This document shows, one piece after another, positions 46,154 to 63,678 of a DNA stretch of 64,000 bases (positions are counted from its first letter, which is position 1; every line of letters starts with the position of its first letter). The notes beneath the pieces were generated by a model. That model did no database searches, had not been told where the DNA came from, and saw nothing but the letters and a program-made list of their open reading frames with translations. The DNA comes from Pseudomonadales bacterium (lineage in GTDB: Bacteria > Pseudomonadota > Gammaproteobacteria > Pseudomonadales > Azotimanducaceae): assembly GCA_016779325.1 (NCBI GenBank), contig JADHNU010000001.1:1-64000 (forward strand). The letters run 5' to 3'. Both the position numbers and the translations under genes were made by a program.

Positions 46154-46393
46154 ATGATCGTTTACGACGAATGCGTAGCGGAAATCCAAGCGCTACTCGC
46201 CCAGTCACACGCAGGCGGCTCCATTGTTCCTCCAGAAAGTGATTTAATTGACGAACTGGGTTTGGCCTCCCTCGACGTGATGGAACTCATCGAAGCCCTT
46301 GAAGATCGCTTCGATGTTGCCTTCCCCCTTAACGAACTCGGCGATGTGCGAACGATTTCTGATCTCGCGCAACGAATTCAAAACCTGACGTAG
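46154..46393 (+). CDS. Acyl carrier protein dedicated to sphingolipid synthesis
   Basis: This 79-aa ACP has the phosphopantetheine site at S39 in ELGLASLDVMELIEALEDRF. It is acidic and helical throughout. The start is the ATG giving MIVYDECVAEIQ; an open frame to 46085 is not convincing. It lies 10 bp upstream of the serine palmitoyltransferase gene, matching the AcpR-Spt pairing known from Caulobacter. A locus-encoded PPTase (63070) could activate it and the acyl-AMP ligase (60393) could load it. Confidence 0.93.
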   Translation: MIVYDECVAEIQALLAQSHAGGSIVPPESDLIDELGLASLDVMELIEALEDRFDVAFPLNELGDVRTISDLAQRIQNLT

Positions 46394-47642: not shown

Positions 47643-48710
47643 ATGGCTGGAGCGCCTCCCCTTGCCTTGGTGGGTTTGGAAAGCCACCGCGCGGGGGAAA
47701 ACGGCCAAATCCGGGCCCTTGTCGAGGCCCTTGAAGCCCGCCTAAGCGTAGCGGCGCAGTGGTTGAGCCCCGCCTGGAAGCAACCTAAGGCCGACCTCCT
47801 CGGCTTCTTACGCCAGGTCAGCTTGGAGGGCGCAAGCCCGCTTCCCCTGCCCCCTGCGCAACGTCATCTCATCGTGAGCGCCGGGCTTCGAAACGAACCT
47901 ATTGCTCGGGCCCTCGCTCAAGCCAGTCCCCAAGGTCATACCGTTTTCCTCGGCCGCACCTGGGCACCAGCGGATGCCTTCTCTCTTACGGTAACCACCC
48001 CCCAATACCGGGTGCCACCCCATCCCCGAGTGCTTGAGAACGCGCTTACCCTCCACGGGCTCACGGAGGCGAACCTCGCCGCGGCCGCTCAGGAACACGA
48101 TGCTTTGCTTGGCCCCGCCACCGGCCAGGCCCTCGCGATTTTAGTTGGCGGCGCCAGCGGACCCTATGCCCTGGGGCCTCGCGCAGCCCAGCGGCTCTTG
48201 GACGAAGCGCAGGCGATCGCCGGCAGGCGGCCGCTTTGGTTGACCACAAGCCCAAGGACGCCGAAGGCGGCCGTCGCGGTCTTTGCTGCCCATAGCTGGC
48301 GCTCCGAGGATCGCTTTCTGCCCTTCGGCGCCGGCCCTAACCCCTACCGAGCCATGCTGGCCAAAGCTGGCGCGCTACTGGTGACTGGCGATAGCATTGC
48401 CATGCTCTCGGAAGCGGCGGGGACGGGAAAACCCCTCAGAATTTTTGACCTTGGCGCCATGGAAGGCCCGGGTTCGGGGCGGCCTCGGGACCATACGCTG
48501 TCCAGCCTCGCCTACGTTGCGCTCTTCCACCTGGGACCGCGACGGCTCAGCCGAGACCTTCGCTGCGTCTATCAAGGACTGCTGGCCGGCCCCCAGGTGC
48601 GCTTCAGCCCCAACGCTATCGCGCCGGCGGCCTGGGGCCGGGGCACCGCCTCCGCCCCCCAGCTTGCCAACACCCTGGCCCGTTTAGCTGAGCTCGACCT
48701 AACGGCTTAG
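47643..48710 (+). CDS. ELM1-domain (DUF1022) protein, paralog A
   Basis: This is a 355-aa member of the mitochondrial fission ELM1-like family. It shows GENGQIRALVEAL near the start, LIVSAGLRNEPIARAL, ILVGGASGPYAL, LTTSPRTPKAAV and VTGDSIAMLSEAAGTGKPLRIF. The layout resembles GT-B glycosyltransferases such as LpxB/MurG: two Rossmann-like halves with a C-terminal GDS-x-M-x-x-EA donor motif. No biochemical function is established for bacterial members as far as I know. It follows spt by 21 bp, so it probably acts on the sphingolipid, perhaps as a sugar transferase. Confidence 0.85.
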   Translation: MAGAPPLALVGLESHRAGENGQIRALVEALEARLSVAAQWLSPAWKQPKADLLGFLRQVSLEGASPLPLPPAQRHLIVSAGLRNEPIARALAQASPQGHTVFLGRTWAPADAFSLTVTTPQYRVPPHPRVLENALTLHGLTEANLAAAAQEHDALLGPATGQALAILVGGASGPYALGPRAAQRLLDEAQAIAGRRPLWLTTSPRTPKAAVAVFAAHSWRSEDRFLPFGAGPNPYRAMLAKAGALLVTGDSIAMLSEAAGTGKPLRIFDLGAMEGPGSGRPRDHTLSSLAYVALFHLGPRRLSRDLRCVYQGLLAGPQVRFSPNAIAPAAWGRGTASAPQLANTLARLAELDLTA

Positions 48711-50404
48711 GACGGGGTTCGACTACCAAGGGAAACGGCGCCCCGCTCCACACGGTATACGCGATCCGCCGCACTGGAGAGCGAACTGTGGTGCGAGACC
48801 ACCAGCAGGGTGAGCTCACCCCGAAGTGCGCACAGCGTATCGGCAATGGCGCGATCCGATTCCGGGTCGAGGGCGCTGGTGGCTTCATCAAGAATGAGCA
48901 AACGAGGACTGCCCAGGAGCGCCCGAGCAATCATGATGCGCTGGCGCTGGCCTCCGGAAATTCGCGTGCCCCGCTCCCCGACGATGGTGTCTAAACCTTC
49001 CGCGAGTGCACTAACAAAGGGCCAGGCGCCGGCCGCACGAAGGGCTTTTTCCACTGCGCTGTCGCTTATGCCCTCTTCCCCCAGGGTCACGTTACGGCGC
49101 ACCGTATCGTGGAGGAGCAAGGTCTCCTGCGGGACATAGCCGATCTGATGACGCCACGCTGCGAGGTCGATCTCCCGCAGATCCGTGCCATCGACCCGCA
49201 CCGCTCCGGCCGTGGGCCGCACCAAGCCGATCACCAGATCGGTGACCGTGGTTTTGCCCGATCCCGATTCCCCCACAAGACAGGTGAGCTCTCCGGCAGG
49301 AATGGTAATGCTGGTCTCCTTCAGGATGTCATGTTCACCATAGCTAAAGGACACGCCCTCGAGGGTAATCTCGCGCTCAAAATGGGGCGGCTTTTCACCC
49401 TCTAGCACCTCAGCCTTTGACTCCGCATCGCTGATGGTTTCATCCAAGGCCCAGTAGGCCGATTCGTAAATGGCCATGCGCTGATATTGCTTCTGCACCT
49501 TGCCAACCTGCTTAAGCAGATTGGCTAAAACCAAAATGAGGAAGGTGGCCGTGGCCATCTGCACATCGAAGAGTGCAAAGGCGAAGTAAATGCCGCCCGC
49601 AATGACCAGGGCGTACATGGGCTCCTGCGCCGATTCAAGGGAGGCCGTGGCGAGGGCCTCGCGACGCAGCGCCCCGCGGAGCGCGCTGGTTTCTTCGCTT
49701 AGCACATTATCGGCCAGATGTTCGCGCCCCATGGCCTTAAAGCTTTTAACGGACTGAAGCGTATCGGTCAGGGAGGCCAGGAGCTGGCGATACCATTGGG
49801 TTTGCAAGACCCCGCCGTCCCGCCCCATGCGGACCAGGCTTCGAGACAGGATCAGAATGAAAATGCTGGCCAGAACGGCGAAGACCATGGCCTGCCAGGA
49901 CACGGCGAAGGCAAAGGCCCCGTAAATCAGCGATTCGATAGTGAGGGCAAGAACGCGAACGCCCATGACGTAGGCAAGAGATGCCCGATAGGCCTCCGTG
50001 CTCATGGCGTTGGCCAGCTTCCCCGGCGATTGGCCCGCAAAGTAGGTCCAGCGGGAGCGGAGGATACCCTGGAGCAGGCGCAGGCGCAGGCCCGTTGCAA
50101 CGTCAGCGGCGATGTAGCCAATGCGTGCCTCAGCAAAAAGCACCATGGCATTTTTCAGGACGATGGCGCCGAGAATGATAAATAGCAGTAGCCCGAGATC
50201 GGGGCTCAGGCCGACGGCCTGAAGGGCATCAATGGCAACCCGCTCCACGCCGGACTCGGGCACCTCGTTCTCGAAGGCCAGATTCAGCACGGGCAGGAGT
50301 GCCGACAAGCCAATACTGTTGGCCACGCCAGAAAGCAACAGCGCAAAAATGAGCACCGCGCTTTCACCGGGATAGCGCTGCAGAAAGCGTTTAAAAATGG
50401 CCAA
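48707..50404 (-). CDS. ABC exporter, MsbA-like lipid flippase
   Basis: This is a 565-aa half-transporter. Six N-terminal helices precede an ATPase with Walker A GESGSGKTT (378-386), Q-loop YVPQETLL, signature RISGGQRQR and Walker B LLILDEATSALD. It is related to MsbA/lipid A exporter-type ABC transporters. It lies 25 bp downstream of lptG-like and is probably one operon with lptF/lptG-like genes. It converges on ELM1 paralog A with a 4-bp overlap. The context suggests flipping a sphingolipid across the inner membrane. Confidence 0.9.
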   Translation of the reverse strand: MAIFKRFLQRYPGESAVLIFALLLSGVANSIGLSALLPVLNLAFENEVPESGVERVAIDALQAVGLSPDLGLLLFIILGAIVLKNAMVLFAEARIGYIAADVATGLRLRLLQGILRSRWTYFAGQSPGKLANAMSTEAYRASLAYVMGVRVLALTIESLIYGAFAFAVSWQAMVFAVLASIFILILSRSLVRMGRDGGVLQTQWYRQLLASLTDTLQSVKSFKAMGREHLADNVLSEETSALRGALRREALATASLESAQEPMYALVIAGGIYFAFALFDVQMATATFLILVLANLLKQVGKVQKQYQRMAIYESAYWALDETISDAESKAEVLEGEKPPHFEREITLEGVSFSYGEHDILKETSITIPAGELTCLVGESGSGKTTVTDLVIGLVRPTAGAVRVDGTDLREIDLAAWRHQIGYVPQETLLLHDTVRRNVTLGEEGISDSAVEKALRAAGAWPFVSALAEGLDTIVGERGTRISGGQRQRIMIARALLGSPRLLILDEATSALDPESDRAIADTLCALRGELTLLVVSHHSSLSSAADRVYRVERGAVSLGSRTPS

Positions 50405-50429: not shown

Positions 50430-51494
50430 CTAGCGCGCTGGGCGTAAAACGACCCAAACCAGGGCCAGCAATAGCATGGGAGGGAGGAAAGCGACGCCCG
50501 CGGGCGGCAGCTGTGCAACAAGCCCAAAATTGCCAAGAAGCTGTTCAAGGAAATAGTAAGCGAGCCCTGTCCCCAGGGCGAGCGCAGCATAGCGCGCCCC
50601 GCCCTGCCGCGCCGTGGCCCGGGCCATGGGCAGGGCAAGAAGCCCAAGAAGCACCGCCGTCACCGGGAGCGCCCACATGCGCCAAAAGGCCAGCTCCCAG
50701 CGTGCAGCCGGCTGCCCCGTATCCTTAAGGTAACGCACGTAGCCCGCCAAATCGGAAAAGGACAGGCTGTCCACCGGGGGGGCACGCAGGAAGGTTTCTT
50801 CCACCCACCAGGGTCGCCAGCGCGCCGGCGCCGGTTCCCGCACCATGCCATCGCGAGAAAAGCGCCGTCGTTCAGCGCCGACCAGGCGCCAGCTGCCATC
50901 CGGCATGGGGTCGGCGGAGGCCGCAAGAATCACCGAGGCCACCGTTGCGTCTTCCCCCAGTTCATAAATCCGCAGGTCTGTAGGAACGCGACCATGCTCC
51001 AGACCACCGACTTCAATGAGGGTGCGCTCGGACCGAGACCAAAAGCCCCGGCCGGCCACCTCGTCCGCTCGCCCCAGCGCCATATCGCGGGCAAGGGTCG
51101 CCCCCGCATAGAGCCGGGGGGATAAATACTCATGCATCACCGGCGTCGCCAGAAGAATAAGCAAGCCCGGCAGCAGGGTCGCCATGGCAAGGCGAGGAAG
51201 GGACGCTCCAGCCGCCCGCAGCACCAGCAGTTCGCTTCGGCGCGCCAGCTGCCAAAGGCCATAGGCGGTGCCGAGGAGGGTCACGAAGGGCAACAGGCGC
51301 AGAATACGCGCCGGGGTGGTCATGGCGACAAAGAGCAGGGCCCCCAGGGCGTTGTAAGCACCCGCGCCCACGCTCTCAAGCTCTTCCCGAAAGGCAAAGA
51401 GGGAGAAAAGCACCAGCAAAACCGTGGTGACCAAGCCGTAGCCGCGAAGCACCGCCAGGGCCACGTAGCGGTCCGCCTTGGTGAACCCCATCAT
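50430..51494 (-). CDS. LptG-like permease of an LPS-type ABC export system
   Basis: This 354-aa YjgP/YjgQ-family protein has six helices and a periplasmic beta-jellyroll (about residues 130-250). [36 protein letters not shown] contains the conserved LptFG coupling region (SELxxxRAAG). The ATG at 51494 overlaps the lptF-like stop. Housekeeping lptFG usually lie next to pepA in gammaproteobacteria; here the pair is inside the sphingolipid locus. Confidence 0.88.
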   Translation of the reverse strand: MMGFTKADRYVALAVLRGYGLVTTVLLVLFSLFAFREELESVGAGAYNALGALLFVAMTTPARILRLLPFVTLLGTAYGLWQLARRSELLVLRAAGASLPRLAMATLLPGLLILLATPVMHEYLSPRLYAGATLARDMALGRADEVAGRGFWSRSERTLIEVGGLEHGRVPTDLRIYELGEDATVASVILAASADPMPDGSWRLVGAERRRFSRDGMVREPAPARWRPWWVEETFLRAPPVDSLSFSDLAGYVRYLKDTGQPAARWELAFWRMWALPVTAVLLGLLALPMARATARQGGARYAALALGTGLAYYFLEQLLGNFGLVAQLPPAGVAFLPPMLLLALVWVVLRPAR

Positions 51495-52546
51495 GTGAGG
51501 CGCCGCCCAAGAAAAGCGAGCCCCACCGCGGCCAAAAGGGGCAGTAGGGGCAAGCCATAGAGGCCAGGAAAGGCCGCCAGCGCGCCGTTCTCGAGCGCCG
51601 TTTGCGCCGCGGCAGCAAGGTAAAAGACGGCGACGTAGAGCCCCACGGCCGCCCCCATGCGCCAGCGCCCGGCTAAGGGTAAAAAGGCCCCCAGCGCTGC
51701 CGCCATGATGGTCATCGCGAAAGCCAACGCGGGCATGGTGACGCGCCACTGAAACTCCGCGCGATCCTTTGGCGCCGACGACGGCCTGAGGGTTGCTGTG
51801 GCCTGGGCGCGGCGGTGGTCCGGCCGGCCAAGCACGGCGCCGTAGCGCCAGCGATAGCGGAGCGCCTCAAAGCGTTGCCGCCGGTCGCCCTGGAGCACCC
51901 CATCTCGCAGGGTCAGCATCTCCCCCCGGCGAAACTCCACGACTTGCACGCCATCACCATCGGGGGGCGCCAAATGGGCCGTCTCGGCGCGAATGAGCTG
52001 GAGGGCGTCCCCCTCCTGCTGCCGGGCGAATACGTCCTTCAACACCCGTCCTTCCGCATCAACCCCCGCAGCAGTCACCACCAGTTCCGGCCCGAGGGCA
52101 TAAAACCGTCCGGCGCGCATGGTGCTCACGTCGGGGCGCGTGGCTAAATCCTCAAGCAGGTAGCTGGTTCGGTAAGCCCAAGGGCGCAGTTCGAGGGACA
52201 ACAGGGCCACCAGCAGAGCCGCTCCCGCGCCGGCCAACGCCAAGGGGATGAGGAGGCGCAAGCCCCCAACCCCACCCGCCATCATCGCCACCAACTCTCG
52301 ATCTCGGCTGAGTCGCTCAAACACGAATAGGACGGCAAAGAAGAGCGCCGAGGGCACAATGACCTCCCCCGCCACCAGCAATTTCAGCCCGATGAGTTTC
52401 CACACGACGGAGGGCGCTAAGGCACCCGCGGCCGCATCGGCCAGGACGTTGGAGCCGGCGAAGGCCGCGAATACGACGCCCAGCAGCAGAACCCCCAAGA
52501 AGAAGGGTCCAAGAACCTGCTGGAGAAGATAGCGATCAAGTATCAA
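51491..52546 (-). CDS. LptF-like permease of an LPS-type ABC export system
   Basis: This is an approximately 351-aa LptF/YjgP-family protein: ILDRYLLQQVLGPFFLGVLLLG at the N-terminus, FERLSRDRELVAMMAGGVGGLRLL (coupling helix), a periplasmic jellyroll, and three C-terminal helices. The start is uncertain: TTG 52546 gives the family-like MILDRYL, while GTG 52561 adds five residues. It is the first gene of lptF-lptG-ABC, divergent from ELM1 paralog B. Homologs bridge the LptB2 ATPase to the periplasmic LptC/A chain. Its own ATPase may be the housekeeping LptB, since none is adjacent. Confidence 0.88.
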   Translation of the reverse strand: MILDRYLLQQVLGPFFLGVLLLGVVFAAFAGSNVLADAAAGALAPSVVWKLIGLKLLVAGEVIVPSALFFAVLFVFERLSRDRELVAMMAGGVGGLRLLIPLALAGAGAALLVALLSLELRPWAYRTSYLLEDLATRPDVSTMRAGRFYALGPELVVTAAGVDAEGRVLKDVFARQQEGDALQLIRAETAHLAPPDGDGVQVVEFRRGEMLTLRDGVLQGDRRQRFEALRYRWRYGAVLGRPDHRRAQATATLRPSSAPKDRAEFQWRVTMPALAFAMTIMAAALGAFLPLAGRWRMGAAVGLYVAVFYLAAAAQTALENGALAAFPGLYGLPLLPLLAAVGLAFLGRRLT

Positions 52547-52638
52547 AGGGCCAAATCCCACCTCGAGCACAGGCTGCGCGCGGCGCAGTGGTGTAGTGTA
52601 ACGACCTTTAGGGCTAGACGGGGGAGGCCGTACCGTCC

Positions 52639-53703
52639 GTGAACGCACAGCCGCTCCGCTTCTGGAGCCTCCTCGGCCAAAAGGCCGGCGATAACCGTCA
52701 GCTCGAGGCCCTCGCCCAGGGCGCGGAAACGCGCCTTGGGTGGGTCGGGGAGCCTCGCGCCCTGGCCTATCGGGGTGGGGATCTTCTCCTCCAGCTCACC
52801 CGCCAGCCAAGCTTGGCCGCCCTACAGCCGCAGGCGCGGGCGTCACTCAAAGCGCCCTGGCCCGACGTATTACTCACGGCCGGACGCCGCAATGAGCCCG
52901 TCGCCCGCTGGATTCAGCAGCAGAGCGGAGGCCGCTGCGCCATCGTCCACGTGGGCCGACCCTGGACCGCACCGCACCGCTTCGATCTCACCCTCACCAC
53001 GGCGCAATACGCCCTCGCCGAGGAACCCGGCAACATCGTCATGCTGCCCGCGCCGCTGGCGCCCCCCCGCGCGCCGAAGGGCATGGAAACGCGCACCAGA
53101 GCCCTCTTGCTCCTGGGCGGCCCCTCCGGCGCCCAGGCCCTTTCGCCCGCCACGGCCGTCCATCTGCTTCAGCGCTTTCGCACACTGGCGCACCGCCATG
53201 GGCTCACCCCTTGCCTCAGCACGAGCCCGCGCACCCCCAGGGCCGTTGAGCGCGCGCTCAAGGGCGAAGCCCAGGACCTCACCGACGGGAGCGTTTTCCT
53301 TTGGCACGCAGCCCAGGGGCAAGCCAATCCCCTTCCGCGCTGGCTGGAGACCGCCCAGCTCGCGGTGGTCACGGGGGACAGCATGTCCATGGTGCTTGAG
53401 GCCTTAAGCGCAGGCTGCCTAACGGCCTATGCGCCTTTACCCAAGCCGCTTTCCTTACGCTGGGAGAGCCTCAGCCATCGTCTGGCGCAGCGCCTCGCCC
53501 CTCGACGGTTTCGCCGAAATACGCAAGCGCTGTTGGATAGCTGGCAGGAAGCGGGGTGGCTTTGGCCCCTCAGCGAGCTGGAGCCCGGCCCCCTTCCCTC
53601 GCCTGGGCCCGGCGCAAACACCCTCGCGGCAAGCAGCTTGGACATCGCCCTCGAGGCCCTCGCCAAGCTCCCTCGGCGCCACCCAGCGCCCACGAAGCCT
53701 TAG
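52639..53703 (+). CDS. ELM1-domain (DUF1022) protein, paralog B
   Basis: This is a 354-aa protein of the ELM1-like family. It shows GDNRQLEALAQGAETRLG (the classic G-D-N-x-Q start), LLTAGRRNEPVARWIQ, LLLLGGPSGAQAL, LSTSPRTPRAV and VVTGDSMSMVLEALSAG. It shares the same order of motifs with paralogs A and C but the sequences are clearly diverged. The start is GTG. It is a single gene between the divergent lptF-like gene and the convergent glycosyltransferase gene (4-bp overlap). A sugar-transfer role in sphingolipid decoration is inferred. Confidence 0.85.
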   Translation: MNAQPLRFWSLLGQKAGDNRQLEALAQGAETRLGWVGEPRALAYRGGDLLLQLTRQPSLAALQPQARASLKAPWPDVLLTAGRRNEPVARWIQQQSGGRCAIVHVGRPWTAPHRFDLTLTTAQYALAEEPGNIVMLPAPLAPPRAPKGMETRTRALLLLGGPSGAQALSPATAVHLLQRFRTLAHRHGLTPCLSTSPRTPRAVERALKGEAQDLTDGSVFLWHAAQGQANPLPRWLETAQLAVVTGDSMSMVLEALSAGCLTAYAPLPKPLSLRWESLSHRLAQRLAPRRFRRNTQALLDSWQEAGWLWPLSELEPGPLPSPGPGANTLAASSLDIALEALAKLPRRHPAPTKP

Positions 53704-54638
53704 GCGCTTAGAGCGAGGGGCGGTGCCGGCGGGGGCGCAAGATCCGCCGTTCGCTCCAGTACCTCAAAAGCATCGTGGCGAAGGTGATTCGCGGCCATCT
53801 CATCGCGCAGCTCCGCCTCAGAGATTGCACCCTGGGCGAGGCATTCCTTAAGGAGCCCGAAGAACAAGGCCTCCTGATTCCGATCCGGGTGCTGGCGATA
53901 GTTCCCCAGAAAAGCATATTCCCCAAAGAGCTTGCGCCGGGCACGCATGAGCCAGCCCAGGGGCGGGAAGGCGCGGAAGCGCTCCGCGGGACGCCAATCG
54001 ACGGGGAGGCCCGTTTTCCAGGGCTGGGTCATGCGTCGCGTCGTATGGAGCAGGCGGGTTTCCGAGGTCAGGCGATCGAAATCGTTCCATTGCGCTTCAA
54101 GAACGCCAATGGTGTTCGGATCTTCAAGCTTTAGGCATACCCACTGGGAGTAATCTCGGGTCCGAGCGAAGAGCTCTCGGAAACCCGCCTCCCCATCCCA
54201 ATGACGAAGCTTTGCGCAGTCCAGCAGCATCACGCTCGACGCCCAGCACTTATCGATCGCCCCCTTGGGGCCCGAGCGCTTGCGGCACAAGATGGCCTTA
54301 TCGCCCATATCACGGCTCAGCAAATCGTTGATGTCGCCGACAGCGAAAATGTCCGGATCCATCACCACGGCCCGTCCCATGTAGCCCATGAGCTTGGGCG
54401 GCATAAAGCGCAGGGGCGTAAAAGACTGGAGGTCTTCGTTTAGCCATACCCGTTCCACCCCGTCCCGGAGGTAGGACTGGCCTTCATGCTCGGCGAAAAC
54501 GGGGTAATCCCGCGTATCGATGAAGGCGACATCGAAGGCGTCGGGATTCGAGGACTGGCGCTTGAGGGCCCAGCGGGCCACCTTCGCGCCCAGAATCTGC
54601 TTGTGATTGGTGTGAATAAATACGCACGGCTTGGTCAT
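53700..54638 (-). CDS. Putative GT8-like glycosyltransferase
   Basis: This is a 312-aa protein with a GT-A-type start (CVFIHTNHKQILGAKVARWAL) and a DxD-type metal motif at D94-P-D96 in MGRAVVMDPDIFAVGDIND. SSVMLLDCAKLRHW follows, as in GT8-like enzymes. No signal or membrane helix is seen, so it would work on the cytoplasmic face. It is the last gene of the cerK-like to GT operon, 11 bp after the sulfotransferase. Confidence 0.75.
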   Translation of the reverse strand: MTKPCVFIHTNHKQILGAKVARWALKRQSSNPDAFDVAFIDTRDYPVFAEHEGQSYLRDGVERVWLNEDLQSFTPLRFMPPKLMGYMGRAVVMDPDIFAVGDINDLLSRDMGDKAILCRKRSGPKGAIDKCWASSVMLLDCAKLRHWDGEAGFRELFARTRDYSQWVCLKLEDPNTIGVLEAQWNDFDRLTSETRLLHTTRRMTQPWKTGLPVDWRPAERFRAFPPLGWLMRARRKLFGEYAFLGNYRQHPDRNQEALFFGLLKECLAQGAISEAELRDEMAANHLRHDAFEVLERTADLAPPPAPPLALSA

Positions 54639-54649
54639 GGCCCGTCCTC

Positions 54650-55573
54650 TTAAGCGGTCTCGGTCGCGCGCCCGTAGGCGAAAAGGGGATGGAGATGCTC
54701 GTCGATGTAGCGGTCGATGGTCTCGAGTTCTTCTTCTGAAAAATCATCTCGGTAACCCGCCACCTTCGCCCGTCGGGTTTTGAAGGAGTTCGGATTATGG
54801 GGGTCAGCGGCGGTAAGCCGGTCACCGGCGCCGGCCATGGTTTCGCCCGTGGCCTCCCGCGCTTTCATGCGTTCGAAGGAGGCGAAATCCACGGCGCTCT
54901 GCACCGCGTCCAGATCCGCCTGCGCCCCCAGAAAAGCAAGCACGGACGCGAGGGTAGCCGCCGTTTCCGCCCGCAGGTCCTCATAGCGCACGACCTGATG
55001 GCGAAGGGTTTGGGGGAACGCCTTAGCCCAATCATTCATAAAGCGCACAATGCGAGGCACACCGCCCCCGTCCCCCATCACGAACTCGAACAGGGAGAGG
55101 GATGCGCCGTGCGGTGGATACTGATTAAGCAGTTTTTTATGGGGCCGCATGCGATGGGCCCATTGGTGATATTGGGACACCGCCGTATCCGCGGGGTGGC
55201 GGGCGAGAAACAGCACGGGGCGAGGATAGTAGTCCGCCTTGCTACGCCCGTTGCCTGTCCAATCCCCTAGGTAATTATCGTGGGTGAAAAAGAGCTTAGG
55301 AATCGCGCGGTGTAGGCGGTGCAGGTTATCGAATTCGAAAAGCACGGGCTCCGCAATGCCGTAGCGTTCGCGATAAAAGTGCGACAGCATGACGCGCAGC
55401 CAGGTCCGTCCCGCTTTCCCAAAGGACACCACCGCGGCATCGGCGTACCGAAGGCGACGGGCTTCTAGGCCCCCGCGCACCCAGCGCTCTAGTCGGACCC
55501 GTTGACCATCGCTCAAAAGCAGGGCGCCGCCCCGCTCCAGATTCCGCCGAACGCTCAGAAGTAGCTCGCTCAT
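54650..55573 (-). CDS. Sulfotransferase domain protein
   Basis: This is a 307-aa PAPS-dependent sulfotransferase. The 5'-phosphosulfate loop is AAVVSFGKAGRTWLRVML (48-64 region). The 3'-phosphate part is PVLFLARHPADTAVSQYHQW, and the C-terminal RRAKVAGYRDDFSEEELETID matches the GxxGxW/K-type PAPS site. ATG 55573 overlaps the ELM1-C stop (TAATG). Its place in the operon suggests sulfation of a glycosylated sphingolipid, giving an acidic head group. Confidence 0.87.
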   Translation of the reverse strand: MSELLLSVRRNLERGGALLLSDGQRVRLERWVRGGLEARRLRYADAAVVSFGKAGRTWLRVMLSHFYRERYGIAEPVLFEFDNLHRLHRAIPKLFFTHDNYLGDWTGNGRSKADYYPRPVLFLARHPADTAVSQYHQWAHRMRPHKKLLNQYPPHGASLSLFEFVMGDGGGVPRIVRFMNDWAKAFPQTLRHQVVRYEDLRAETAATLASVLAFLGAQADLDAVQSAVDFASFERMKAREATGETMAGAGDRLTAADPHNPNSFKTRRAKVAGYRDDFSEEELETIDRYIDEHLHPLFAYGRATETA

Positions 55574-56688
55574 TAGTCTTTCCCTGTCCCCTTTCCTAAG
55601 CCAGCGTTGGCGCCGCTCAATAAACCTTCCACCGCGGCCACGGCCCGTGCCAGCGCTCGCTCGGGATTCAAGCTTGGGCCCGAGGTCGCCGCGGCCTGAG
55701 CTTCCGAAGCCGGGTTCAGGAAGCGCGCCGCGCCGGATCGCACCAGGGCGTGGGCAAGTGCGTCGAGATCCCGAGGCGCTGGAAGCCAGCCTCGGGCCAC
55801 GGCCCTTTGGCGTACCCGGGCAAGGCGAGGAAAGCGCGCCACGGCCCGCTCTAGTCGCTCTCGCCAGTCTACCGCTTTTGGCAAGCGATAGATCCAAAGG
55901 GGCGCATCTTCCCCGCTCAGCTCCATGAGCATGGAGGCGGAATCGCTGGTGGCGACGAAGGCCTCAGCCCCGCGGCGCAGCGCGCCGTAGGGATTAGCGG
56001 CATCCCCCTCACGCCAGCGATAAAGCCGACTGCCGGCCGGGCGGAGCGCGTCCAGAGCGTCAAGTATGGCCGCCGGCGTTCTCCGGGAACCGCAAAAATA
56101 GAGTGTGCCGGCTGCCCCCCGGGGCAAGGTTTTTAGGCACCGGAGGAGCTCGGCCAGCACCCCTTCATCAAAACGATAGGGCCGGGTGGCACCGCCTAGC
56201 ATCACCGCCGTGAGGGGCCGGGGCAGCGCCGCAAGCTCCGCCTCGAGTGCGGTCTCTGAAGCCCCGGGAACGGCAGGAGGCTTTGACAGAAAGAGCGGCG
56301 ACTCCAGAGACAGCACATCCGGCGCCGGCGGCACAAGCGCCTGGGGGGGCGCAAGAATGAGGGCAAAACGACGGCGATACCCCTTCGGTCGCCCGAGAAT
56401 CACCAGGCGGGTTCGGCCGCCGCTTTGCTTTTGGATCCACAGGGCCGCCATGGTTGGACGACGACCCGACACGAGAATCAGTTCGGGCCAGGGCGGCAAA
56501 AGAGGGTCCGAGGCGTTCCGATCAAAGGGATAAAGGCTCGGCAGAAAAGGGGGCTTCCCGGTGACCCAGCGGGGCTTCGGCACCAGCCGGCGCCGCAGGT
56601 AGGGCACGCTAAGGCGGTCGGCAATGTTCAGAAGCTGCTGCGTATCTCCAGGCTTGCCGCCTTCCAGAAGCCACACGGGGGCGGTCAC
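55573..56688 (-). CDS. ELM1-domain (DUF1022) protein, paralog C
   Basis: This 371-aa ELM1-like protein shows EGGKPGDTQQLLNIADRL, LILVSGRRPTMAALWIQKQSGG, AVMLGGATRPYRF, CGSRRTPAAIL and VATSDSASMLMELSG. It is longer at the C-terminus than A and B. The GTG at 56688 overlaps the stop of the Tam41-like gene (GTGA), so the two are coupled. As the third member in one locus it implies three different substrates or steps. Confidence 0.85.
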   Translation of the reverse strand: MTAPVWLLEGGKPGDTQQLLNIADRLSVPYLRRRLVPKPRWVTGKPPFLPSLYPFDRNASDPLLPPWPELILVSGRRPTMAALWIQKQSGGRTRLVILGRPKGYRRRFALILAPPQALVPPAPDVLSLESPLFLSKPPAVPGASETALEAELAALPRPLTAVMLGGATRPYRFDEGVLAELLRCLKTLPRGAAGTLYFCGSRRTPAAILDALDALRPAGSRLYRWREGDAANPYGALRRGAEAFVATSDSASMLMELSGEDAPLWIYRLPKAVDWRERLERAVARFPRLARVRQRAVARGWLPAPRDLDALAHALVRSGAARFLNPASEAQAAATSGPSLNPERALARAVAAVEGLLSGANAGLGKGTGKD

Positions 56689-57596
56689 TTTAGATAACCC
56701 CCACGCCACAGCCGCCAGAGCTCGGGCCAGAGCAAGAGCCAGGGGTAGCGGCGCAGGCGCGGCGTCAGGCGGACCTGGGCGCCGCTATGGCGCTCGAGCT
56801 TCCAGGCGGCGTAATCGAGCGCCCCCTCAAAGGTCCCGAGCGCCTTAAGCAAACGCGCCAGCGCTAGGGGCTTTCCCAGGACCGCGCGAGCACGCCAGGC
56901 CCAGCGGGTGGCAGCGGCGGACCGGCGCGCACGCCAGAACCCCTCTCGCGCCAATACGGGGCCTGCTAGAGCGCGGAAAAAGGTCGCCTCGCGGGCAACG
57001 ATATCGTCCCCCCGCCCGGGGCCCTCCGGTCGAAGTTCTGTCCCATAGGTACGTGCTAAGGCCGCGCGCCAGAGATCCTCCGGTCCCGCCCCCTTCGCCA
57101 CCCCCGGCAAGGTCCGCCCCAGCAAGGTTTCGGAAGCCCCCAGGAGCGCAACCTCATAGTGCGCCCGGCGGTTCGGATCGGGGCAGGCCAGGAGACTCAT
57201 GGGCTGCGCATAGCGCGCCCAAAAATAGGGGAAGAAGTCGAGCCGAGAACACCCTCTGAAAAACTGCCTTTCCGTTAGGAGCGCGTACTTACAACGCAGC
57301 ACGCTCCCGTCCGCCCCCGGCACCTCGAGGTAAAACACATTGGGCGGCAGGACAGCGCCCGCCCAGGCGAGCCCCCGGGGCAGGCTCCGGAAGTCGCTCA
57401 CGAGCACGTGAAAATCAACCAACCCCTCCAAAGTATCCTCGCGCCGGCAAGACCCGTAATACAGCACCCCAAGCAGGCTGGCCCCGTAGCGCTGCTGCAG
57501 CGTCTCGAGGAGGGGCGCAAGCCCAGCCTGCGGGGGGCGATCGAGCTGGGCCCGGAGCGCGGACCGAGCTTGGCGCTCAAGCTCGACGAAGCGCAC
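56685..57596 (-). CDS. Nucleotidyltransferase-fold protein resembling mitochondrial Tam41
   Basis: This is a 303-aa protein. The N-terminal nucleotidyltransferase motif is VLYYGSCRREDTLEGLVDFHVLV (GS at 48-49, D61-x-H63). VFYLEV, CKYALLTERQF (102-112), FWARYAQPMSLL (125-136), PEDLWRAALARTYGTELRPE (172-191) and GRGDDIV follow. The same order of features (YGS, FD-x-V, a KYG-like strand, YIAGRLQKPV-like segment, LSY-x-GD-x-R) occurs in Tam41, the mitochondrial CDP-diacylglycerol synthase. Start GTG directly follows the cerK-like stop. I infer transfer of CMP to ceramide-1-phosphate or phosphatidate; the similarity was judged by eye. Confidence 0.65.
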   Translation of the reverse strand: MRFVELERQARSALRAQLDRPPQAGLAPLLETLQQRYGASLLGVLYYGSCRREDTLEGLVDFHVLVSDFRSLPRGLAWAGAVLPPNVFYLEVPGADGSVLRCKYALLTERQFFRGCSRLDFFPYFWARYAQPMSLLACPDPNRRAHYEVALLGASETLLGRTLPGVAKGAGPEDLWRAALARTYGTELRPEGPGRGDDIVAREATFFRALAGPVLAREGFWRARRSAAATRWAWRARAVLGKPLALARLLKALGTFEGALDYAAWKLERHSGAQVRLTPRLRRYPWLLLWPELWRLWRGGYLK

Positions 57597-58550
57597 CTAG
57601 GCCGCCCCGCGCCCGGGGCCTGCTAGGGCGACGAAGGTGCGGGGGGCCCCCGCGGTGAGGGTTAGGGGACCCACGCTGCGATATACCTCACCGTCAATGA
57701 CCCAGGGCTCCGCCACCTCTAAAGTCAGGCGCGCGCCCCGGGCACTAAAATAGCCCGCAGCTTGCGGAAGATGGGCGCTTCGCCCAAAGAGCAGGGCCGG
57801 AAGGCGCCAAGCGAGGCCAGAAGCCCCGGGGGAAAGCCAGGTGCACGCTAGGGGGCCGCCCCCGGGCCCCCAGAAAGGCGTCATGCCCAAGAAGAGCCGT
57901 TTCATGGTGCTGGCTAGGAACAAACTTTTCTCCGCGCAGGCCAGCGTGTGCCCATCGAGTCGCCCGGGCAAATGCGCCGGCGCATCAAAGGGTGCTTCTC
58001 GCCGGAGCATGCCAAGGGCCACACGCAGCAGCGCCGCCCCCGCGGCCCACTCGCCGGCGCGGCCGCCATGACCCAAACTGGCATGCCAGTACTCAATGCC
58101 GCGCACGATGACCCCAGCGCCGAAGAAAAAGCCGCGAAGGGACTCCCCCTCGGGGGTTTCTAAGGCAAGGGGGGCGCGCTCAAGACAGGGCCAGGTGGCA
58201 ACGGGTAGGTCCCGAAGGGCCAACAGCGCCCGCCGACGCCGGCTCAGACGCCCCCCACAGCGCAGATCATGCGCGGTCATATTGGTGCTCCCCGCAGGCA
58301 GAATCGCCAGGGGCGGCGCCGGGCGGTCGCCCAGGGCCGTCAACACCGCATGCACCGTGCCATCGCCCCCATTGATCGCCAGCACGGACGGCGCCTTCGC
58401 CAGCAGCGCCTCCAAGGCCATCGGCACATCGGCGGCGGATCGGGTAACCTCTTGGCTTACAGCGGTAAGGCCACCGAAGCTCTCGATCAACGCCGCCTTG
58501 CGCGCATTTCGCCCGCTGCCTGCGTTACTGAGGATTGCAATGCGATTCAC
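57597..58550 (-). CDS. Diacylglycerol/ceramide kinase-type lipid kinase
   Basis: This is a 317-aa DAGK-catalytic protein: SNAGSGRNARK (8-18), the nucleotide loop NGGDGTVHAVL (G61-T65) and LPAGSTNMTAHDL (87-90 GSTN), followed by the C-terminal beta-sandwich. In Caulobacter a protein of this class (CpgB) phosphorylates ceramide. The Spt/CerR context makes ceramide the likely substrate. GTG start with AAGGG upstream. It heads a five-gene operon: kinase, Tam41-like, ELM1-C, sulfotransferase, GT. Confidence 0.85.
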   Translation of the reverse strand: MNRIAILSNAGSGRNARKAALIESFGGLTAVSQEVTRSAADVPMALEALLAKAPSVLAINGGDGTVHAVLTALGDRPAPPLAILPAGSTNMTAHDLRCGGRLSRRRRALLALRDLPVATWPCLERAPLALETPEGESLRGFFFGAGVIVRGIEYWHASLGHGGRAGEWAAGAALLRVALGMLRREAPFDAPAHLPGRLDGHTLACAEKSLFLASTMKRLFLGMTPFWGPGGGPLACTWLSPGASGLAWRLPALLFGRSAHLPQAAGYFSARGARLTLEVAEPWVIDGEVYRSVGPLTLTAGAPRTFVALAGPGRGAA

Positions 58551-58568: not shown

Positions 58569-59501
58569 ATGAACGGGGCGGAAACTTGGACCCTACCCCC
58601 AGCGCCGCCGGCCGGGAGTATAAAGGTTGCTCACCTGACCGACCCACACCTCAGTAACCTGGCGGGGATCGAGGCCCTAGAGCTTCGGGACCAGCGCCTC
58701 CTCGGCTGGCTTTCCTGGCGCCGGAAACGGCGGCGGGTTCATCAACGTGCCACCCTCGACGCCGTGGTCGCGGCCGCGCGCCGCGGCATGCCGGACCACT
58801 GGTGTATTACCGGCGACCTTACCCACATCGGCCATGAACGGGAGCTGAGCGAGGCCGCGGAGTGGCTGAGATCCCTGGCGCCTCCAGGCCAGCTGACGGT
58901 TATCCCGGGCAACCACGATCTATACATACCCGCCTGCTCCCAGGCGGCCCTTGAGGCGCATTGGGGCCCCTATCTCAAGGACGCCGGGGACGCCTGGCCC
59001 CGGCTTCAACTCCGGGGCGCCGTCGCCTTGATCAGCCTGAATAGCGGCCATGCTGCGCCCCCGGCCTTCGCTACGGGCGCTCTCGGCGCCCTTCAACGGA
59101 CCCGCCTTAAGGCCTGCCTTGCTGCGGCAGGGGCCGCGGGCTATGCCCGGCTCGTGCTCATCCACCACGCCCCGGGGCCGGGCATGGATAAATGGCGCAA
59201 ACGCCTGGTCGACGCCCCGGAGTTGGCGAACATCCTTCAGCACGAGGGCGCCGAGCTCGTGCTCCACGGCCATTGCCACGAGAGCCTGTCTCGCACCCTC
59301 GCCGGACCCGCGGGACCAATCCCCGTGCTCAGCGCGCCCTCTGCATCGGCCACGGGAGAGCATGGCTGTCGCAGCGCAGGCTTCAACGAGCTTGCGATCA
59401 CCGTAACTACGCGTTCCGTAACCCTTGAGGCGACGGGGGTGCAACTGGGTACCCCCCCTCAGCGGACACTACACACCACCCTACCTCGCCCCGGCGCTTA
59501 G
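58569..59501 (+). CDS. Metallophosphoesterase
   Basis: This is a 310-aa calcineurin-like phosphoesterase with all five metal motifs: D25-x-H27 (LTDPHLSN), G82-D83 (ITGDLTHIGHE), G114-NHD (VIPGNHDLYI), LIHHAPG and the C-terminal HGHCH. It resembles cyclic-phosphodiesterase and LpxH/UDP-diacylglucosamine-hydrolase-like enzymes. It is divergent from the lipid kinase (18-bp gap) and could hydrolyse a nucleotide-activated or phospho-sphingolipid. That role is inferred. Confidence 0.88.
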   Translation: MNGAETWTLPPAPPAGSIKVAHLTDPHLSNLAGIEALELRDQRLLGWLSWRRKRRRVHQRATLDAVVAAARRGMPDHWCITGDLTHIGHERELSEAAEWLRSLAPPGQLTVIPGNHDLYIPACSQAALEAHWGPYLKDAGDAWPRLQLRGAVALISLNSGHAAPPAFATGALGALQRTRLKACLAAAGAAGYARLVLIHHAPGPGMDKWRKRLVDAPELANILQHEGAELVLHGHCHESLSRTLAGPAGPIPVLSAPSASATGEHGCRSAGFNELAITVTTRSVTLEATGVQLGTPPQRTLHTTLPRPGA

Positions 59502-60292
59502 CCGTCGCCGCGGCGGCGAAAGCGATCCCGGACCGTGGCCAAGTCCTCTAGGGAGTCCACGTCCACGGCGGCATCGGGGTCGGCAACGGGAATAGCGGCG
59601 CACCGAGCACCGGTGCGATCGCTTAAGGCCTCCAGAGCAGCACTAAGAGACAAGCGCCCTGCCAGATAGCGCGCAGCCAAGCCCAGGCCCAACACCCGCA
59701 ACATTTTATCGGGCCGCTTTCGCAGGGCTTCCACTTCGCGCCAAAAGCTCAGCACCTTCCCCGCTTTGGGCCCGCGGAGGAAAAACAGATTGGTTCCACA
59801 ATAGGCGCCACAGGAGAAACGCAGGGCGGTGCGTTTTGAATGCGGAAAAGCCGCCTGCACCGCCTCATAGGGCGCGAGGCCCACAGCGACGTCCTGCGAG
59901 CCCGCTGCCGCGTCTTGCCAGAACCGCTCTAAGGTTTCCGGCGTCAGCAAGGGATGATCCCCCGTGGTCAGCAGGAGCGCTTTCCCTTCCCCTTGTGCCG
60001 CTTCCCAAAGCGCCTGGGCGCTGCGCGCGGGAGACCCCTCTGGGGGCAACCACCGCGCTGCCCCCGCGGCCAAGGTCGTCTCCAACCAGGGCGCCGTTGC
60101 CCGTTGTATGAGCGCCGGCCCACACAGCATGGGCGGTTCCGGCGCCACCGCGGAGACGTTGGCCAGCACACGCTGCAGCATGGGCACGCCGGCGATGTCC
60201 ACCAACGTTTTCAGCGTGACGCCTTCTGCGTCCTGAAAGGGACTGGGCCCGGCCCGCTCCGCGGCGAGGATGCCAAACAGCACTGCGCTCAT
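59498..60292 (-). CDS. MobA-like NTP transferase domain protein
   Basis: This is a 264-aa Rossmann nucleotidyltransferase. The N-terminus (GILAAERAGPSPFQDAEGVTLKTLVDIAGVPMLQRVL) is a modified form of the LAAGxGxR...K signature, with the usual Arg/Lys partly replaced. The metal Asp is in LLLTTGDHPLLT and a second in PDAAVDVDSLEDLATV. A nucleotidyltransferase is also present among the Caulobacter ceramide phosphoglycerate genes, as I recall. It may activate a head-group alcohol phosphate as a CDP derivative. It is convergent with the phosphoesterase. Confidence 0.8.
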   Translation of the reverse strand: MSAVLFGILAAERAGPSPFQDAEGVTLKTLVDIAGVPMLQRVLANVSAVAPEPPMLCGPALIQRATAPWLETTLAAGAARWLPPEGSPARSAQALWEAAQGEGKALLLTTGDHPLLTPETLERFWQDAAAGSQDVAVGLAPYEAVQAAFPHSKRTALRFSCGAYCGTNLFFLRGPKAGKVLSFWREVEALRKRPDKMLRVLGLGLAARYLAGRLSLSAALEALSDRTGARCAAIPVADPDAAVDVDSLEDLATVRDRFRRRGDG

Positions 60293-60392: not shown

Positions 60393-62144
60393 GTGACCGA
60401 TTTAAGGGAGCCCATGGTAACGCCAACGGAGCGCGAACAAGCGCTTCGCGGGGGGGATTTTGCCACGCTCTGGGAGGCACTCAGCTACGCCGCGGGGGCT
60501 GCGACGGGGGCAAACTTCTTCGACGGCCGGGGCCGCTGCACCGCGGCCTTAAGCTGGGGCGCCATCGCCGAGGCTGCGGAAGCCCTCGCGGGGGCCTTTT
60601 CGGCGCTCGCACTCCCCCGGGGCAGCCGGGTCGCCATCGTCGCCGAAACCCACCCGAATTTTCATATCGCCTTCTTCGCGGCGCGCCGGGCGGCCCTCGT
60701 GCCCGTACCCTTGCCCGCCAGCATTCACATGGGCGGCGCAGAGCCTTTCGTGGCCCTCCTCGCTCGCCTCATGGCCCACGCCGACGCAAAAGTCGCGCTC
60801 GCCACGGATGCCTTTCTTCCGTACCTCGAACAGGCCCGGGACGCGACGCCGAGCGAACTCCGCGTGGGCACGGTAGAGGCCTTTCTCGCGGGCCCCCATG
60901 CGGCCCTACCCGAACCGCCCGGCCCGGATGAAGTCGCCTACGTCCAATACACCTCAGGGAGCACCCAATTTCCTCGCGGCGCCGTGCTGACGGAACGCTC
61001 GACCCTGCGCAACGTGCTCGGCATCATTCGTGACGGGCTCAAGATTGGTGAACAAGACCGTTTCTGCTCCTGGCTGCCGTTTTATCACGACATGGGATTG
61101 GTCGGAAAAGTCATGGTTCCCATGGCCAGCCAAACCTCCATCGACTACCTCGGCCCCCGGGAATTCGCCATGCGTCCGCGCCTCTGGCCCCGCCTTATCA
61201 GCGACCATGGGGGCACCATTTCCTTCTCGCCCCCCTTCGGTTACGAACTGACAGCCCGGCGCTTACGCGCTCAGGATGCGGAAAGCTTTTCCCTCAGCCA
61301 CTGGCGCATCGCTGGCTGCGGCGCAGATATGATCCGCCCTCAGGTCCTGGAAGCCTTTGCCGAAGCCCTCGCACCGGCGGGATTTCGCAAGGAGGCCCTT
61401 ATGCCGTCCTATGGGATGGCCGAAGTGTCTCTAGCCGTGAGTTTTACGGCCCCGGGAACGGGCCTCCACACAGACCGGATCGACCGGGCGACGCGGGAAC
61501 GGAAGGGCTATGCCCAGCCCGGAGAGGGGCCGGAAAGTCTTCGCTTCACCAGCTGCGGCCAACTGCTCCCGGGCTATGAGGCCGAAATACGAGACAGCAA
61601 AGGCGGGCCCTGCCCCGATCGCACCATCGGCACGATCTTCCTGAAAACGCCCAGCACCATGGAAGGCTATCTCACCAAAGACGGCCTAGATCAAAGCGCC
61701 CTTCACGGGGCTTGGCTCGATACGGGCGACTTGGGCTACCTCTACAACGGCACCTTGGTGGTGACGGGACGGCGCAAGGATCTCCTCATCGTCAATGGCC
61801 GTAACCTTTGGCCCCAGGACCTCGAGCTTACTGCCGAACGCGCGGCCGAGGGACGTACGGGAGATGCGGCCGCGTTCACCGTTGAGGGTCCCGAGCGAGA
61901 CGAACTCGTGGTCCTCCTCCAATGCCGAGAGCGGGTCCCGGAGAAGCGCCTTGAGCTGCTCCGCGGCGTTCGCCGCGCCGTGCAAACCACCTTTGGGGTG
62001 GAAGCGAATGTGCAAGGCGTGGAGCCCCATGCCCTGCCTCGAACCACCTCCGGAAAGTTGTCTAGGGCCAAGGCTAAGGCCCTGTTCCTTGATAAGGATC
62101 CGAGCCTGGGCCTCGCCGCCGCACAACTGGCCCCGGAAGCATGA
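60393..62144 (+). CDS. Fatty acyl-AMP ligase / acyl-ACP synthetase
   Basis: This is a 583-aa adenylating enzyme. The P-loop-like motif is VQYTSGSTQFPRGAVLT, then PSYGMAEVSLAVSF and LDTGDLGYLYNGTLVVTGRRKD. The GYELTARRL...LSHWRIAGCGADMI segment is typical of FAAL enzymes, which load ACPs rather than CoA. It corresponds to the acyl-AcpR synthetase of Caulobacter and should charge the locus ACP for Spt. The GTG start is 60393; ATG 60414 is possible (AAGGGAG just upstream). The next gene overlaps by 4 bp. Confidence 0.9.
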   Translation: MTDLREPMVTPTEREQALRGGDFATLWEALSYAAGAATGANFFDGRGRCTAALSWGAIAEAAEALAGAFSALALPRGSRVAIVAETHPNFHIAFFAARRAALVPVPLPASIHMGGAEPFVALLARLMAHADAKVALATDAFLPYLEQARDATPSELRVGTVEAFLAGPHAALPEPPGPDEVAYVQYTSGSTQFPRGAVLTERSTLRNVLGIIRDGLKIGEQDRFCSWLPFYHDMGLVGKVMVPMASQTSIDYLGPREFAMRPRLWPRLISDHGGTISFSPPFGYELTARRLRAQDAESFSLSHWRIAGCGADMIRPQVLEAFAEALAPAGFRKEALMPSYGMAEVSLAVSFTAPGTGLHTDRIDRATRERKGYAQPGEGPESLRFTSCGQLLPGYEAEIRDSKGGPCPDRTIGTIFLKTPSTMEGYLTKDGLDQSALHGAWLDTGDLGYLYNGTLVVTGRRKDLLIVNGRNLWPQDLELTAERAAEGRTGDAAAFTVEGPERDELVVLLQCRERVPEKRLELLRGVRRAVQTTFGVEANVQGVEPHALPRTTSGKLSRAKAKALFLDKDPSLGLAAAQLAPEA

Positions 62145-63073
62145 CGACGGACGTCCTCAGCGACCTACCGGGACCCATCGCCATTACCGGCGCCACGGGA
62201 TTCATTGGCCGCGCGCTTTGCCAACGCCTTGAGCCCGCCCGCCAGGTGGTTCGGGCCCTATCACGGCAGGCCGATAGCCGGCTCCCGGATACGGTCACGG
62301 TGGTTCGCGGCGACCTCTCCTCAAGCGTCGCCCTTCGCACCTTAGTACGAGATGCGGCCTGGGTCGTGCATTGCGCGGGGGCCGTTCGCGGGGCCACGCG
62401 CCGCACCTTCGATGCCGTTAACGTCGACGGCACGGCAGCGCTACTCGATGCCATGGCCGCCGCTGCGCCCAAGGCCCGGCTCCTCCATATTTCTACCCTC
62501 GCAGCATCCCAGCCCCAACTGTCGGACTACGCGGCGAGCAAGCGCAGCGCGGAATTGCTCGTCACCACCCGGAGCCGCGCGGGCGACCTCATCCTCCGTC
62601 CTACGGCGGTCTACGGCCCTGGCGACCGAGAACTTCGCCCCCTCCTCGACCAAGCCCTCAAGGGTTTTCTCCCCCGACCCGTTGGGAATCGTCGCATCAG
62701 CTTGCTTCATATCGACGATCTCATTGATGCCATGCTGCTGGCCATGCAAACCCCGGACGGCGAGGTGGGCCCTTATCCGTTGGCCGACGCCCGGGCCCAA
62801 GGCTATCGCTGGCGGGAACTGGCCGCGGCAGCGGCGCGCATCCGAGGCGACCGGGTTCGTGTATACCCCGTACCGAAAACCCTCCTGTACTTGCTCTCCC
62901 TGGGCGCCACCCTAGGGGCCCGTGCGCTGGGGGACGACCCCATGCTCACCCCCGGTAAGGTTCGGGAACTCACCTTCGAAGATTGGTCCTGCGATAGCAG
63001 CGCCTTTCGCGCGCGTACAGGCTGGACTCCGCAGGTCAGCCTGGATGCGGGGTTACGAAGCCTCGTTCTGTGA
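62141..63073 (+). CDS. cerR: NAD-dependent epimerase/dehydratase family protein, CerR-like ceramide reductase
   Basis: This is a 310-aa extended SDR: TGATGFIG (16-23), DVDGT-like NVDGTAALLDAM, S118, Y130-x3-K134 (SDYAASKRSAE), and RPTAVYGPGDREL. In Caulobacter the CerR protein of this type reduces the 3-keto group of oxidised ceramide. The acyl-AMP ligase overlaps upstream and a PPTase gene overlaps downstream (GTGA), so the three are coupled. Confidence 0.85.
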   Translation: MTTDVLSDLPGPIAITGATGFIGRALCQRLEPARQVVRALSRQADSRLPDTVTVVRGDLSSSVALRTLVRDAAWVVHCAGAVRGATRRTFDAVNVDGTAALLDAMAAAAPKARLLHISTLAASQPQLSDYAASKRSAELLVTTRSRAGDLILRPTAVYGPGDRELRPLLDQALKGFLPRPVGNRRISLLHIDDLIDAMLLAMQTPDGEVGPYPLADARAQGYRWRELAAAAARIRGDRVRVYPVPKTLLYLLSLGATLGARALGDDPMLTPGKVRELTFEDWSCDSSAFRARTGWTPQVSLDAGLRSLVL

Positions 63074-63678
63074 GGCGTCGGCGCGGACAGAGCGTCCAAC
63101 GAGTTGGTGCCACGCGCGTTTTTGTATGCTGGGCGCCCATCACCTCGCGCGCGCCCATCCCCTCAAGACGGGTCGGCCTCCGTGCGGATCGGTCCCTCAG
63201 CCCCGCGCAGCGAACCGCTGCAGCGCTTTACGCGACCCTAGGCCCTGGCCATGGACGCCTGCGCCTTCGCCCCAGGCGACGCCCGCAATTTCGCAGCGCG
63301 AAAGGTCGTCGCTATGCGTTCAGCATGAGTCACAGCAGGGGACTGGTGATGCTTGCCTGGGCCCAGGGCTTCAACCTGCGGCTTGGGATAGATTTGGAGC
63401 GAAGTACGCGCCAAACCCGGCCTGGGCTGGCGCGCAAGCTCCCGTGGGAAAAGGCCGCCACGCCCTACGGAAGGCTGACCGCAAATTGGACCGCGCTTGA
63501 AGCGGCGTTGAAGGCTGACGGCCGGGGCCTCAGCGGCCTCGGTAAGGTGGTGGCGACGGCCAACCCTTGGCGCTTGGAACGGCTAGCGCCCGGCCATGGC
63601 ATCCTACTATTGGCCCCGCTGAAGAGGACGCCCCGAGGCTTTAGCGCAACCCTTGCGGTGACAAGAACCCGCGCCTAG
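63070..63678 (+). CDS. 4'-phosphopantetheinyl transferase (Sfp-type)
   Basis: This is a 202-aa protein. The Sfp motifs are visible: FSMSHSRGLVMLAWA (84-98), GIDLE (106-110; metal Asp108 and Glu110) and NWTALEAALKADGRGL (139-154; E144, K148). The middle KLPWEKAATPYGRLTA aligns with the linker. The GTG start overlaps the cerR stop. It is shorter and more basic at the N-terminus than usual. It should convert the apo-ACP of the locus to the holo form. It converges on a DUF5916-type gene (4-bp overlap). Confidence 0.83.
   Translation: MRRRRGQSVQRVGATRVFVCWAPITSRAPIPSRRVGLRADRSLSPAQRTAAALYATLGPGHGRLRLRPRRRPQFRSAKGRRYAFSMSHSRGLVMLAWAQGFNLRLGIDLERSTRQTRPGLARKLPWEKAATPYGRLTANWTALEAALKADGRGLSGLGKVVATANPWRLERLAPGHGILLLAPLKRTPRGFSATLAVTRTRA

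Follow-up and report, generated by a model that had tools for sequence, protein, structure and literature searches.

The first 64,000 nucleotides of contig JADHNU010000001.1 (GenBank assembly GCA_016779325.1, Pseudomonadales bacterium, family Azotimanducaceae), referred to below as the window, carry a three-gene unit (60393-63678) whose third gene, judged from its sequence, is a real but divergent Sfp-type phosphopantetheinyl transferase (PPTase) gene. The enzyme is probably the only PPTase of the cell, priming both AcpP, the acyl carrier protein (ACP) of fatty acid synthesis (FAS), and AcpR, the specialised carrier of a sphingolipid locus, and coupled to the lipid operon. The initial annotation had taken it for a private helper of this locus. 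The underlying observation is confirmed, and its meaning should probably be corrected: in a small gammaproteobacterial group, a sphingolipid cluster is coupled to what is likely the sole PPTase.

The unit lies on the forward strand and starts with an aasR-like gene for a fatty acyl-AMP (acyl-ACP) ligase (60393-62144; NF006624, 641 bits at a curated cut-off of 600), followed by a gene for a cerR-like NAD-dependent reductase (62141-63073; PF01370, 94.7 bits) and by the PPTase gene (63070-63678). The 4-bp overlaps reported earlier between these genes are present at 62141-62144 and 63070-63073. AasR is 80-81% identical in the three congeners with a full copy, that of the fourth (G002) being partial. 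The CerR-like protein passes no CerR-specific model, and it was named from its position, as genes of this kind follow aasR in most related loci, and from its identity of 33.5-53.5% to the products of the genes that follow aasR in 20 loci of family members from other genera (42% in G008).

Taken alone, the PPTase scores 19.4 bits (E 0.0011) with PF01648, below the gathering score of 25 that serves as detection threshold, and also 19.4 bits with the HetI model, for which the cut-off is 370; a phmmer search of the Protein Data Bank (PDB) returned a single match, at E 0.52. The Sfp motifs of the initial annotation, which had left them to profile searches to support or refute, are borne out by a profile of relatives, by the motifs themselves and by the predicted fold. 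Thirteen PPTases were aligned, from five genomes of the same genus (g1, window included), six genomes of genus g56, G016 and G008, the last one being partial since its contig ends within the gene. They are 60-62% identical to the window protein within the genus and 27-34% outside it. Residues S85, H88, G106, D108, E110, W140, E144 and K148 do not vary among the 13, so that the Asp-Xxx-Glu/Glu metal triad (D108, E110, E144) is complete in each; residue roles of the triad follow PMC4103896, seen in part. The profile of these 13 sequences (A1), which contains no solved PPTase, matches solved Sfp (1qr0) at 2.3e-9 and human AASDHPPT at 4.8e-8, pointing to Sfp homology. When nine ordinary Sfp-type rows are added, the resulting broader profile, which is less independent than A1, matches Sfp at 1.9e-43. 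At E≤1, PF01648 matches 12 of the 13 proteins, PF22624 eight and PF17837 five.

The AlphaFold2 (AF2) model of the window PPTase (predicted local distance difference test, pLDDT, 83.2; predicted template modelling score, pTM, 0.84) adopts the two-subdomain monomer fold of Sfp, and aligns with PptT at Z 14.0 over 189 of 202 residues. The best fold matches are PptT/PptAb and their mycobacterial kin (Z 13.1-14.0 over 175-189 residues), at a low identity of 13-16%; mycobacterial PPTases and PcpS of Pseudomonas aeruginosa (Z 13.0) together rank at Z 13.0-14.0, followed by Sfp at Z 10.7-11.9. Foldseek gives 31 matches at E≤0.001, all of them to PPTases, with modest query TM-scores of 0.34-0.59.

The score below the Pfam cut-off, the loss of Lys before the catalytic Glu and the absence of about ten residues between the metal ligands might also be expected of a decayed or non-catalytic PPTase remnant. 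This explanation is highly improbable, given that the Asp-Glu-Glu triad, the His and the terminal Lys are invariant in 13/13 proteins, that the fold is confident and that selection has kept the gene. By the Nei-Gojobori method, the ratio of non-synonymous to synonymous substitution rates (dN/dS) ranges from 0.10 to 0.22 among 10 gene pairs of g1 and from 0.15 to 0.48 among 15 of g56; the values for the four g1 pairs that involve the window genome, with dS of 1.8-2.1, are rough. The invariant catalytic residues and dN/dS likewise rule out a chance open reading frame (ORF) or a decayed gene. The third gene is thus conserved, under purifying selection and intact in its catalytic residues.

These PPTases are unusually short between the metal ligands and very basic. 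The first Asp and the catalytic Glu are 36 residues apart in g1, 35 in g56, 33 in G016 and, in the partial protein of G008, 41, against 46-48 in ten other Sfp-type proteins, and the computed isoelectric point (pI) is 11.6-12.0 in g1 and g56, 10.7 in G016 and 8.7 in the partial G008 protein, against 6.1-10.2 in the same ten. The shortened segment is one that may help to bind the carrier protein. In a tree of 24 PPTases, g1 and g56 form one group (99/96), which is joined by G008, G016 and G068 at 93/89, below the star mark of the program and with several long branches, including that of G008. The cerR-coupled state requires two changes on this tree.

The coupling is shared by other genomes. An even draw from a larger group gave 200 genomes of the family, of which 39 have an aasR match at E≤1e-80; 26 of the 39 were examined. 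The check that the initial annotation had proposed, for a PPTase next to cerR elsewhere, gave a positive result in 12 of the 26 (5/5 in g1, 6/6 of the sampled g56 and G008), and in the other 14 the fetched aasR stretch showed no PPTase. Second aasR loci, one each in G106 and G067, lie outside the examined set. The junction of cerR with the PPTase gene is a 4-bp overlap in eight of the 12; the two genes overlap by 1 bp in G059 and are 2 bp apart in G099, G082 and G141. For g56 the start codon nearest to cerR was taken among several. Because the PPTase gene follows cerR in 5/5 genomes of the genus, 6/6 of g56 and in G008, with the overlap mostly kept, the three-gene arrangement is not due to chance. 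The aasR gene of G002 does not share a contig with cerR and the PPTase gene. Its cerR (L113:23-893) is in two pieces in different frames, by assembly error or by a real break, and the PPTase frame after it is open.

Beyond the family sample, the best 80 aasR loci, out of at least 582 relatives, were taken from a species-wide collection of genome contigs. Two of these 80 (L032 and L045, apparently contigs of G004 and G008, with which they agree in length and hits) hold a credible PPTase by profiles A1 and A2; a match of A1 in L088 (14.7 bits, E 0.012) was not counted as a PPTase. Downstream space of 2.5 kb is available in 61 loci: 42 of these have cerR-acp-spt, 17 cerR alone, one acp-spt, one none of these and none a PPTase gene. 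Thus, the window PPTase gene stands where many loci have acpR-spt. A PPTase was said earlier not to be known from the Caulobacter cluster, and in the accessible part of PMC11324152 none of the 17 cluster genes is named as one. No report of a PPTase in this cluster was found in the literature, most subscription papers being outside the search.

The PPTase gene could also be a housekeeping gene that was relocated, its coupling to cerR being incidental. The same-clade PPTase genes of G016 and G068 are on another contig than aasR, indicating that the gene can stand alone. Incidental neighbours would be expected to separate, however, and the PPTase gene overlaps the end of cerR or begins 2 bp after it in 12/12 genomes, so an incidental coupling seems unlikely, although such a relocation is compatible with the sole-PPTase part of our explanation.

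That the enzyme is the sole one is suggested by searches for a second PPTase and for AcpS. In the window genome, whose assembly is 93% complete, PF01648 finds the window PPTase only, even at E≤10, and at E≤1 it finds one weak place in each of the four congeners. The AcpS model TIGR00516 gives no match at E≤10 in any of the five g1 genomes (the window genome included) or in five of the six of g56, and in the sixth (G059) only a chance-like match of 12 bits. The same model finds AcpS in all three family controls, which had been picked for AcpS-sized PF01648 matches seen there before, and it is positive in nine of its 14 named control genomes. Profiles A1 and A2 reveal no second credible PPTase in the window genome or its four congeners: an extra A1 match in G001 (35 residues, 17 bits) lies antisense to an ORF that looks by eye like a transporter gene. 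Weak A2 matches occur in five g56 genomes (E 0.03-0.15), and the three inspected by eye look like TetR-type regulators. In total, the enzyme is the sole credible PPTase found in the window genome, in 4/4 congeners and in 5/6 g56 genomes, with a credible AcpS in 0/11. The pdxJ-acpS context was of no use as a test of AcpS loss, for AcpS is on another contig than pdxJ in three AcpS-bearing family members and other genes follow pdxJ in two. On viral contigs 21 stretches fit the pattern searched for, and none of them encodes a relative.

The window genome contains two carrier proteins by PF00550 at E≤0.01, namely FAS AcpP, whose gene is located, as read by eye, between fabF-like and fabG/fabD-like ORFs, and AcpR of the locus. 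Since AcpP is present and no second PPTase or AcpS was detected, the simplest reading is that the window PPTase is the housekeeping one. The independence of the locus from the host AcpP and AcpS, which had been proposed together with a private PPTase, is hence not supported: the window PPTase is the only one that this genome shows, and TIGR00516 finds nothing. Such an economy is known elsewhere. Legionella has a single Sfp-like PPTase and no AcpS, and P. aeruginosa is cited as having one broad PPTase (both in the available part of PMC5126622), while precedents for one PPTase serving two carriers are given for Haemophilus influenzae and Synechocystis (PMC4103896, in part). The window genome is like Legionella and P. 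aeruginosa in having one PPTase and no detected AcpS; as far as the sequence tells, its enzyme appears to differ from those single PPTases (PcpS in P. aeruginosa) in the metal-ligand segment, shorter than in the ten ordinary Sfp-type proteins, in its very basic character and in its coupling to a sphingolipid cluster.

Several results weigh against a sole housekeeping enzyme. The dN of the PPTase gene in pairs with the window genome (0.37-0.41) is 4 to 5 times that of cerR (0.085-0.088, three pairs computed), which one would not expect of a housekeeping enzyme. The cerR and aasR sets do not include G002, whose cerR is split between two frames and whose aasR lies on another contig, and the aasR set does not include g56. 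Immediately in front of the catalytic Glu, these PPTases have Leu, Val, Ala or Thr, while 9/9 ordinary Sfp-type rows have Lys there, as in the W-KEA motif. One of the six g56 genomes, G141, has a second Sfp-type protein (L181:1883-2719, on a contig of 3,030 bases), which falls outside the operon-linked clade and may be foreign. Six family genomes (G007, G015, G067, G088, G065 and G070) give no match with PF01648 (E≤0.02), A1 or PF22624, and A2 matches only in G088, at E 0.97. TIGR00516 is also without a credible match in the first four of these, and G007 and G015 have no PF01648 match even at E≤1, G015 being listed as 100% complete. As all six should need a PPTase, the searches must miss some, and one could be missed in the window genome as well; these genomes may hold a very divergent PPTase. 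The sensitivity of the models is uneven. PF01648 at E≤0.02 misses the cerR-linked PPTase in G114 and G130, and it gives no match in 38 of the 200 family genomes and in 12 of the 128 better ones. These counts overstate absence, for the PPTase of G008 was found at E 0.003 under a laxer limit and those of G114 and G130 by A1. PF22624 misses the known PPTase within the genus, so its null result says little there.

These observations leave some room for a private PPTase that primes AcpR only, AcpP being served by another enzyme that is too divergent to be found or is encoded in the unassembled part of the genome. The operon position of the gene, its fast divergence, the short segment with a pI near 12 and the fact that some family genomes must hold PPTases that escape every profile used would all agree with this. 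The second PPTase would have to escape PF01648, TIGR00516, A1, A2 and PF22624 in 5/5 genomes of the genus and in 5/6 of g56, which makes this explanation doubtful, and more so than an incidental relocation. The gene once read as a private helper thus more likely serves the fatty acid metabolism of the whole cell.

As the sole PPTase, the enzyme would transfer 4'-phosphopantetheine from CoA to a serine of both FAS AcpP and AcpR. The acpR-like gene (46154-46393, forward strand; PF00550, 39.8 bits at a cut-off of 20.8, scored on the longer ORF 46085-46393) encodes a carrier whose serine aligns with that of AcpP, and which is a likely substrate of both the PPTase and the ligase. AasR would then load a fatty acid on holo-AcpR, and serine palmitoyltransferase (Spt; 46404-47621, forward strand; NF047599, 567 bits at a curated cut-off of 500) would condense acyl-AcpR with serine, by analogy with Caulobacter, for which this condensation was demonstrated (PMC9386255, in part). 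The coupling to cerR, presumably on a shared transcript, would tie production of an essential priming enzyme to that of the lipid operon's products and might have a regulatory meaning. If this is true, an enzyme essential for FAS priming is translationally coupled to a membrane-lipid operon, linking general lipid synthesis to sphingolipid output; the group would also offer a compact form of PPTase in which the metal-ligand segment is reduced, and would be a clade in which bacterial ceramide synthesis must either lack its later steps or carry them out in another way.

The genes around the unit resemble the AasR-CerR-AcpR-Spt cluster of Caulobacter and other Rhodobacteria, as far as described in parts of PMC9386255 and PMC11324152. 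Genes of the aasR, acpR and spt types of the five-gene ceramide pathway are all present in the window, and cerR has a candidate in the expected place, which resembles the genes after aasR elsewhere. A lipid kinase, two LptF/LptG-family permeases and an ABC exporter are also common to both. The window differs in that a PPTase gene is located directly 3' of cerR, where many others have acpR-spt, in that its acpR-spt genes begin about 14 kb before aasR, and in that a gene of the bCerS type was not found in its clade.

CC_1154 is among the five genes required for dihydroceramide (PMC11324152, in part). Genes of this kind were traced through G008, in which one gene is located between the nucleotidyltransferase gene and aasR. 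The product of this gene, a putative bCerS (CC_1154 type) by its position, has no Pfam match at E≤0.01, and in 48 of the best 80 loci a relative of it is encoded no more than 2.5 kb upstream of aasR. At E≤0.001 it matches none of the 11 genomes of g1 and g56, while it matches all four others tested (G016, G068, G007 and G015) and, trivially, G008. In the ten of the 11 genomes whose aasR contig was examined, the nucleotidyltransferase gene adjoins aasR with no bCerS-type gene between. The locus, described earlier as self-contained, does have genes for a ligase, an ACP, Spt, a CerR-like protein and a PPTase, but its clade showed no gene of the bCerS type, which belongs to the known pathway, so that the description needs care. 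Spt genes with no bCerS or CerR nearby were described in a Black Sea study, which suggested rearrangement or replacement (PMC11334938, in part). Tentatively, the two genera might have kept the start-up of sphingolipid synthesis, lost or substituted the known ceramide synthase and linked the operon to the one PPTase that they have. An unknown N-acyltransferase would then act, or a non-acylated sphingoid lipid would be made, and a single PPTase, short and very basic, would recognise AcpP as well as AcpR.

Five further annotated genes of the locus are on the reverse strand. A MobA-like nucleotidyltransferase gene (59498-60292; PF12804, 44.3 bits) is divergent from aasR, and a lipid kinase of the DAGK type (57597-58550; PF00781, 46.4 bits) is a candidate ceramide or sphingoid kinase. 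Two LptF/LptG-family permeases (50430-51749 and 51491-52648; PF03739, 185 and 166 bits) and an ABC exporter, a candidate lipid flippase (48707-50404; PF00005, 115.6 bits, and PF00664, 42.1 bits), are also encoded there. The locus also contains three Mito_fiss_Elm1 (PF06258) genes (47643-48710, 52639-53703 and 55573-56709), as well as a gene for a protein of 312 amino acids with no Pfam match at E≤0.01 (53700-54638). A sulfotransferase-family gene (PF00685; 54650-55897) within the locus hints at a sulfated product.

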